Shown piece by piece: positions 36,701 to 39,700 of a DNA stretch of 64,000 nucleotides; the first letter of the stretch is position 1; each line of letters begins with the position of its first letter. Origin of the DNA: Larus michahellis (taxonomy: Eukaryota; Chordata; Aves; Charadriiformes; Laridae). The notes under the pieces were generated by a model. It searched no databases, was not told the DNA's origin, and saw only the letters and a program-made list of their open reading frames with translations. The position numbers and the translations under genes are program-made. The stretch lies in contig NC_133901.1 of assembly GCF_964199755.1 (NCBI RefSeq), positions 51,495,324 through 51,559,323 of the forward strand. Direction: 5' to 3'.

Positions 36701-39700
36701 AGGCAGCGGGGGATGGCTACCCATCCCTGCCCCACGCTTTCGGCTCAGCAACATCATAAACTGCACCAGCATCTTTCAAAACATTCCTTGCCCAGCCGAC
36801 TACCCTCCCCGAGGACAGCAGACCCCTCTACCCTACAAACACAACCCCACAGTGCGGGAATCAGCAACCCAGCGTCTCCCTTCCAACTGCTTGTTTCCAT
36901 CCGAGTGCGTCACAACTTAATGCTGCCCCCAGACCGTACTGCGCTATGACAGCATCGCCGCTTGTCACGGCCCTGATGTCCCCACCAGGCCGGTTTTGAC
37001 CACGGGGGCAGCCCAGGTACCCCAGGGGTACCCCTGCCTGCTTTGCCCCAGCCTGCCCGCAACACGGAAGCCAGCGAGGACTCTTCTCTCGCTGCTACAC
37101 CAGAGGCAGGCACCCGACCGAGGTAGGATGCACCCAGAGACAGCCTGTTCGCTTCTCCCCACCTAGGACAGACGCACACCAGTATAACACCTCCAAAACG
37201 GATGCTGGCTCAGAGCGAGCAAGCCCTTGGCAGTAAAAAGCCCTTTTTTTTTTGTCCAGGCAGCCACTCCTTCCTCTCCAGCTCCGCTCGGCTGGCAGCC
37301 GGGGCTGTGGCGCTGCCCCTCCGCGCTGCCTTGCAGCTCTCCCCACCGCCCCAGCCGGGTGCCAGCCTGCCCCGGCCGGGCTGGCAGGGCTCAGCGCAGC
37401 CCTTGGCGGGGAGCCCGCAGAGCTTGTCACTTATGCTAAGCTGGAGAGAGGGCTGGTCCCAGCGGTACAGCTCTGTCCTGGATTCTTCTCGCAGCGATGT
37501 TTTCGAGCAAGCGTCGCTGTCAAGCCATCGTAAGCGGCGCAATGTCACCCAGGTCTTGCCGTGCTCCCTCTCCCGCCGTGCCCGGGGTGGGATGGGGGGG
37601 AGGATGGCAGGGCTGGAGACGGGGACCCTCGGACGGAGGGCTGGGGGGGCTGATGGGGACCCGTCTCCGCTGAAAGCGGGCAGGGGAGGGAGATGGGGCT
37701 GGCCGCTCGCTACATCCAAGCCAGGGCTGGGGCACTCGCAGGTGGTTGTCCGGGCGTGTCCGTCCGTCCGTCCGCTCGTGTCCCCGCCGGAGCGCAGGGC
37801 GCTGCGCATCCCCTCGCCGCGCCCCCCGCTCTCCCGGCCCGCCGCTTACCGGCTTCTTCTTGCGGCGGTTCTGGAGGCGGCTGACCACCAGGTCGGTGTA
37901 GAGCACCGGCTTGAGGGTGCGGGAGCGCTGGGGCCAGCCGTAGCAGAAGGTCTCCACGCCGCGGTAGTTGCGCCCGTAGCGCACCGAGCACATGGAGCGG
38001 GACCGCATGCGCCCCGCGCTGCTGTTGATGCTGTTGACACCGATCATCCTGCCGGCGGCGGCGGGGGTGGGGGGCGGCGGGGTGCCTGGCCGCCCTGCCC
38101 GGCCCTGCCTGCCCTGCCTGCCGCGGCCCGCTCCGCCGCCGCCGCCGCCTGTTGAAGCCGGGCCGGGCCGGGCAGGGCTCGGCGGCGGCCGCCCGACAGA
38201 GGCGGGGCCCCGCCCCGCCCCGCCCGCCGCAGCCAATGGCGACCCGGGGCGCCCGGCCCAGCCGAGCCCATCCGAGCGGGGCCGAGCCGAACCGAACAGA
38301 GCCGAGCCGAGCGGGCCCGATCCGAACCGAGGGCATCCCGCCTGGTGGGACACCGTCCCTGTCGCTGCTGCCACACGAGCTGCCCCCGGTGCACCAGCTG
38401 GCCCCTCCCCGCCTCCTTTCCGCCCCCGATGGCTGGTGGCTGGACGCTCCTGAGCTCAACGGGGCTGGGGGGCAGCGGTGGTGACACCTCAGGGGCTTCC
38501 CGGGCTCCATCGGGCAGGCAGCACCTCCACTCCGTGCTGGGCTGGGCAGGTTTCAGAGCTGCTGCTGCAGCCCAGCCTGCACCAGGGACCTCCAAAGGGC
38601 TGAGCTGGTGGATATCAGACCTTCCATCTTCAGTGCCCACCCCACACTTAACCCTCCTGCCCATTCCTTCCAGGTCAGGACAGAAAAATCAGTTGCTAGA
38701 GGCGCGTGGCTGGTTAAGAGCAGGACGTAGATGCTCCAGGCAGCTGTTCCCGTGAAGCAAAGGGCTGGGCATCCTTGCAGAAGGCATGAGGATCGATGCG
38801 TAATTCAGTCAGGCTTGACTGAGTAGGAGATGCGGCCCGTGGAGAAGGGGAAATTTTCCACTCTGTCCTGACTGCTCGGCATAGTGATCACTGGGCAAAA
38901 CCTCTGAGGGACGGGGCATGGGTGTCCACCCCATCAGATGTGCTGGGCTGCCCCTCAGGCCTGGGGGAGCCACGGGAAACAGGAGCAGGGCAGTGTACTG
39001 CTCCCAGGGGAAAACAGGAAAAAATAGCCCAGGGGATTAGACTGAGCAAGCGTTCCTGTGATTATAGCTCAGAGGTGGGAGCCGGGGCTTTCTTCCCACA
39101 TTGCTAATCACTTACCCAGCACTCTGAGCGTCTGAGCCCTGCCGTTGTGCCTCCAAGCTGGAAGGTGGGGGCCCATCCTACCTTCCTCCCCCGGGGACCC
39201 GACTGCATTGTCAGGCTTAATTCATTAACATCTGCGAAGTGCTCCGGCTCCTGGGCTGGAAGGCAGCACAAATTTGGCTCGCTCCTGCAATCACTAAGCA
39301 GCACTAGGGAGAAATGGGGCCTGATTTGGTCCTACTGTGTTGGTACTGGCCAGCAAAGCACAAGGTTAAGCTAAAAGACTAGGAAGATGGGGAAGAGCTA
39401 AGGCTCCACAAAGTGATCAATCACGTAAAGGTCAGATCCACATCTGAAATATAACAGACAACCAGCAACAGTGAGTGAAATGCCAGGGGGCCTGGGCTAA
39501 AATCACACTGACAAGAGAAGAGCAACATCTCAAGAGCGAACCAAAATATCACCAGCTCCAGGATATCCTGCTTCACCTTCCTTGCAGGATGGGCAGCTGC
39601 CTTCATTTGGCCACAGGGGTTCAGGTCCAAGCCTGTAGACATGGCCATCCTTGGGCACAGCATTATATGGGTTCTTATATCTCCGTCAAGGCCCCCTGCC

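Follow-up and report, generated by a model that had tools for sequence, protein, structure and literature searches.

Forms of EFA6 proteins that lack the Sec7 domain are already on record in the mouse. As far as the available portions of the sources go, a short EFA6A without Sec7, termed EFA6As, has been reported there (PMC6522047, PMC6915736); it reportedly regulates dendrite formation, probably via ARF6-independent actin remodelling, and the likewise Sec7-less EFA6D1/2s keep a PH domain and coiled coil as EFA6As does (PMC6522047). The C-terminus of EFA6A, when sent to the plasma membrane, gives rise to protrusions with actin cables (PMC6915736), and alternative promoter use in PSD3 is mentioned, in the available text without exon detail (PMC2585104, PMC4424892). 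Here we describe a segment in a 64,000-nucleotide stretch of the Larus michahellis genome (contig NC_133901.1, positions 51,495,324 to 51,559,323; hereafter the window) that is very probably an intragenic CpG-island promoter together with an alternative first coding exon of PSD, the gene for EFA6A, and that would yield a Sec7-less product.

EFA6As is said to go back to Sironi et al. 2009 (doi 10.1242/jcs.042325), and EFA6D1/2s, the short isoforms of EFA6D (PSD3), reportedly, to Fukaya et al. 2016. The bird segment lies in the same gene as EFA6As; in its predicted product the PH domain and C-terminal part are present and Sec7 is missing, and exons 15–16, which would supply the C-terminal coiled coil and actin-bundling region of EFA6As, are in frame. 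This likeness is one of gene and domain content. With EFA6D1/2s, going by what the available text says of them, the product shares a PH domain without Sec7, and the bird PSD3-like gene has a probably homologous candidate first exon in the same intron; that exon, however, has no CpG island, and the comparison was made by domain description. The domains are also those of the EFA6A C-terminal and PH-Ct constructs, but these are artificial and, as described in the part of the paper available, apparently without the 66-residue leader (PMC6915736). The segment likely encodes the bird EFA6As. The original prediction for this segment, made from the sequence alone, had pointed to a Sec7-less EFA6A isoform in mammals, and the portions available of PMC6522047 and PMC6915736 attest that such an isoform is real.

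Sec7-less EFA6 isoforms as a kind are thus already known; documented here are the exon in the bird gene, the promoter proposed for it and the similar exon in the paralogue. Our literature search found no description of these three, though the primary EFA6As and EFA6D papers or routine bird annotation may contain them, and it found nothing on an alternative PSD promoter, on Sec7-lacking EFA6 in neurons, or on five fragments of the leader and five more that came mostly from the PSD3-like peptide.

The candidate first exon and its CpG island

On the minus strand of the window, a frame of 66 codons (37850..38047) runs from an ATG to the donor CCG|GTAAGC, which directly follows a complete codon and is therefore in phase 0. 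The frame lies within a 1.3-kb CpG island (37251..38550; guanine plus cytosine content 0.74, CpG observed/expected 0.77, by composition scan) in which non-overlapping GGGCGG motifs start at 38425, 38225, 38215, 38194 and 38095. An inverted CCAAT box (ATTGG) at 38237, with the GC boxes at 38225, 38215 and 38194 between it and the ATG, forms a promoter-like minus-strand cluster (38189..38237) that is probably the core promoter. The scanned stretch 38460-37850 contains no upstream ATG in frame, and the two upstream ATGs, at 38336 and 38271, both lie beyond the CCAAT box and the nearer GC boxes. Scored with a hand-entered weight matrix, the donor ranks first of the 480 GT sites on the intron's minus strand, by a narrow lead (8.93 vs 8.90). 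The original prediction had named these elements (a 66-codon frame with a start codon and a strong phase-0 GTAAGC donor, behind a CpG island with GC boxes and a CCAAT box), and all were recovered, the translation confirming frame, donor and length.

The openness of the frame is by itself uninformative, as random stretches of equal composition are open over 66 codons with a probability of ~0.53. About half of such stretches would thus suit a chance frame, in which stops are simply rare in a GC-rich island and GTAAGC follows by accident, and other minus-strand frames at the site are long-open too. The codon structure argues strongly the other way. G or C occupies 34, 34 and 65 of the 66 first, second and third codon positions (Fisher P ~3e-13), and none of 5,000 sequences simulated under each of four null models attains the contrast between positions, 0.47. 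Among the stretch's 368 windows clear of the exon the best contrast is 0.11, and the adjoining 198 nucleotides on each side have no such split. By codon periodicity the exon frame ranks first in the whole window, both among 32,152 mutually overlapping 66-codon windows without stops (0.477 at the peak, a codon before the ATG; 0.470 for the exon; 0.379 for the next place), and among 116 ATG-to-donor candidates of 40–200 codons. Amino-acid composition resembles noise before the ATG, protein from there to the donor and noise again past it, with a score of +27.6 bits vs a null mean of −34.3 and maximum of −1.2 (4,000 simulations, of which the 2,155 stop-free were scored and the 1,845 with stops dropped). 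Given this codon-position split, these composition edges and the probable counterpart exon in the PSD3-like gene, a chance frame is scarcely credible. Since G or C fills 65 of 66 third positions but 34 of 66 first and 34 of 66 second positions, we infer that selection preserved the protein sequence as the GC-rich island drove third positions to G/C.

A coding exon could still be entered by splicing, either from a further, non-coding exon on its 5′ side or at a CAG|G before the ATG, so that the island would not be the exon's own promoter. The CAG|G is there, behind a C-rich tract that is 69% pyrimidine with no T over the 16 bases scored. Set against this, the CpG island with its CCAAT and GC boxes lies directly upstream and resembles a typical TATA-less promoter, and inclusion from exon 9 is disruptive: when entry at CAG|G was tested as an internal cassette, the frame after exon 9 shifted and met stops. 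A first exon therefore fits best, and we regard entry by splicing as unlikely. We likewise consider it very unlikely that the segment is the first exon of an unrelated same-strand gene, nested in the PSD intron and spliced to other exons. The leader belongs to no recognised family, as such a gene might have it, and the periodicity scan would overlook exons far below 66 codons in length; but its top 40 include no window on the minus strand from 37850 to 32513, the next known acceptor, that of exon 10, is phase-compatible, and the same arrangement is seen in the PSD3-like gene. With no in-frame ATG upstream in the open frame and no minus-strand window before exon 10 among those top 40, a first exon that would be joined to exon 10 is the best reading. 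Codon structure and phase strongly favour what had been proposed originally, an alternative first exon for a product that has the PH domain and C-terminal region and lacks Sec7; donor strength and the probably homologous paralogue exon add to this.

The predicted product and its host gene

The acceptor at 32513 reads CACAG|GCA CTG, and the join between leader exon and exon 10 is in phase 0 on both sides. The leader exon and exons 10–16 together make up 1179 nucleotides, encoding 392 residues and a stop, for a predicted protein of 44.5 kDa and isoelectric point 9.8. Profile searches place PF15410 (PH_9) at residues 123–234 of this product (expectation value, E, 8e-36), and give no match to Sec7 anywhere in its 392 residues at E 1. 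The original prediction of a frame-compatible join to exon 10, yielding about 392 residues with a PH domain and without Sec7, is thus borne out, as is that of a basic leader: its 66 residues, which start MIGVNS, contain 15 lysines or arginines vs 2 aspartates or glutamates. The same prediction had called the leader unrecognised. This still holds for its function, whereas one probable relative of its N-terminus has come to light, in the PSD3-like exon. The leader probably serves as an extra segment for targeting or binding and, because it is so basic, could strengthen membrane contact. A Met-Ile start suits N-terminal acetylation by NatC, and the leader's own start would suit such acetylation. 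Compared with PDB sequences, the 326 residues shared with the long form matched 11 entries over or around the PH domain, none of them named EFA6. No relatives of the leader were found in viral contigs and prokaryote genomes, collections that hold no vertebrates and have no bearing on its conservation; a control query, the PH exon, also found nothing in the viral contigs.

All PSD exons are on the minus strand and are numbered as in the original prediction. The intron between exons 9 and 10 (32514..42408; 9,895 nucleotides) houses the candidate promoter and the alternative exon. Exon 10 (32470..32513) is the first shared exon, with 44 nucleotides that encode 14 residues and run from phase 0 to phase 2. 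It is followed by exon 11 (31068..31246; linker and start of PH), exons 12 (30262..30332) and 13 (29525..29682) within PH, exon 14 (29034..29178; end of PH), exon 15 (28242..28385; C-terminal region, presumably the coiled coil of the EFA6 family) and exon 16 (27741..27980; C-terminus and stop codon). In the exon upstream of the intron, exon 9 (42409..42498), which the short form would skip, a Pfam profile search detects Sec7 at 23.1 bits vs a cut-off of 22, over profile positions 141–172 of 183. The match stops at 172, and therefore the 44-nucleotide exon 10 probably encodes the remaining Sec7 tail. The intron had been placed between the Sec7 and PH exons; the division is not a clean one, since the intron falls just inside the end of Sec7.

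The shared exons with PH_9 and the upstream exon with Sec7 identify the gene as PSD (EFA6A). The choice of PSD over PSD2, PSD3 and PSD4, and the NFKB2-PSD neighbourhood, are assumed by analogy with the human genes. Three other EFA6-family loci are present in the genome, all distinct from the PSD locus in the window. Tail to tail with PSD lies a plus-strand gene (21339-25356) with Rel homology dimerisation and Death domains above cut-off and a Rel DNA-binding domain below it, presumably NFKB2. Beyond it, also on the plus strand, 10551-12720 contains two stretches of PF10277 (Frag1/DRAM/Sfk1), one above and one below cut-off. Further longer CpG islands at 61401-61950, 18251-19200, 14251-15050 and 3901-4900 may be promoters for the long PSD form or for genes nearby. 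Pieces resembling the CR1 repeat consensus, in keeping with a bird genome, occur for example around 34338.

A probable counterpart exon in the PSD3-like paralogue

Genome-wide comparisons were made in one assembly of 1.4 gigabases, from which the homologous introns or regions of the paralogues were extracted. Besides the window's own locus and some weaker matches, a PSD query led to family loci on three contigs, C41, C15 and C24, which from the human sequences we take to be PSD3-like, PSD2-like and PSD4-like, respectively. The homologous intron on C41 is 22.5 kb long and holds, on the same strand as the gene, an ATG-anchored frame of 53 codons, MIGVNSVQSTSKVRVRATGSVKYSREESLWRQSHRSKSMKISNSSEFSTKESK, a candidate alternative first exon of the PSD3-like gene (C41:55603912-55604070, minus strand; L030:12-170). 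The frame begins MIGVNSVQSTSKVRVR... with its ATG at 55604070, and its first six residues, MIGVNS, are identical to those of the PSD leader. It ends at a phase-0 donor, AAG|GTAAAT, and reads into PSD3-like exon 10, ALYNSIKNEKLEWA. A local tblastn search over six loci aligned the leader with this frame at E 0.002. The alignment score is 59, compared with a mean of 23 (standard deviation 4, maximum 48) for 5,000 shuffles, and the next best of the 327 ATG frames in the C41 intron scores 39. We consider the PSD and PSD3-like exons probably homologous; what makes the case is that they agree in position, strand, start anchoring and phase, and not the score alone.

Several observations weigh against this homology or against the reading of the PSD segment as a whole. 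The likeness does not extend past roughly residue 46 (37% identity up to there by tblastn, 34% over the alignment). Searched against the whole genome, the leader found its own exon and four weak hits (E 1.4–3.6) that we judged to be chance; three of these four score higher than 59 (raw 72, 71 and 61), and therefore the score by itself is without genome-wide significance. In genome-wide searches at E 10, neither the PSD leader nor the PSD3-like peptide matched the other (5 and 1 first-look candidates were scored, respectively). The C41 exon has no CpG island, unlike the strong island at its PSD counterpart; its periodicity is weak (G or C at 20, 26 and 28 of the 53 first, second and third codon positions), and its donor ranks 13th of 1,447. 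Intron 9 of the PSD2-like gene (L026, C15:983001-991000), 1.1 kb long, shows no counterpart among its 16 ATG frames of at least 20 residues. The leader has no family match in Pfam or PDB sequences, and its AlphaFold single-sequence model is poor (mean predicted local distance difference test score 50.6). For EFA6R (PSD3), two splice variants with the same domain structure are described, and the available part of that source names no short form (PMC4246094). Finally, the basis is the DNA of one genome, in which start site, junction and function are all deduced from the sequence.

As to the weak hits themselves, they were put down to chance because no alignment among them begins at the start codon; the DNA around L002 and L005 is CpG-poor, L003 has internal stops, and L004 was not reproduced, giving 13 bits at another place. 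A DNA pattern of the MIGVNS type has 27 matches genome-wide. The motif alone is not significant, because a backward control gives 21; its weight lies in two of the 27 being these exons. In the PSD4-like region (L027), where exons 9 and 10 were not located, none of 257 ATG frames is similar. An EFA6C-antibody band of ~50 kDa, which relates to the PSD2-like gene, is left unexplained in the available text and was equal in the knockout (PMC6522047).

Proposed action and significance of a Sec7-less EFA6

Transcription would start in the island, some 50–200 bases upstream of 38047, and the 66-codon exon, judging by phase and splice sites, would be spliced to exon 10, so that the exons for the extended N-terminus and for almost the whole of Sec7 would be skipped. 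The product would be a basic protein with the PH domain and C-terminus and without the ARF6 exchange domain. Its PH domain would be expected to bind membrane rich in phosphatidylinositol 4,5-bisphosphate and its C-terminus to organise filamentous actin, while ARF6 would not be activated. Such behaviour is reported for mammalian EFA6As and the EFA6 PH-Ct constructs, and the same action may be expected in the bird because the product has the PH and C-terminal exons. In neurons the short form might then act as a competitor of the full-length exchange factor or offset it locally.

The segment extends the Sec7-less EFA6 forms to a bird, for which it offers a candidate promoter and start exon as well as a defined leader peptide and junction for testing. 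A similar exon occupies the same intron of the PSD3-like gene of the same genome, which suggests that the alternative first exon arose before PSD and PSD3 separated. Should both exons derive from a common ancestor, the short form would predate the divergence of PSD from its PSD3-like paralogue, and the choice between ARF6 activation and ARF6-independent actin organisation would be an old, promoter-controlled one that is open to study. We regard it as an even call whether a second, internal promoter with its first exon was already present before PSD and PSD3 were duplicated and was passed on to the EFA6 genes of vertebrates, with the basic MIGVNS leader a conserved functional targeting module. 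If this is true, Sec7-less EFA6 would count as an ancestral protein with regulation of its own, instead of a by-product of the exchange factor.
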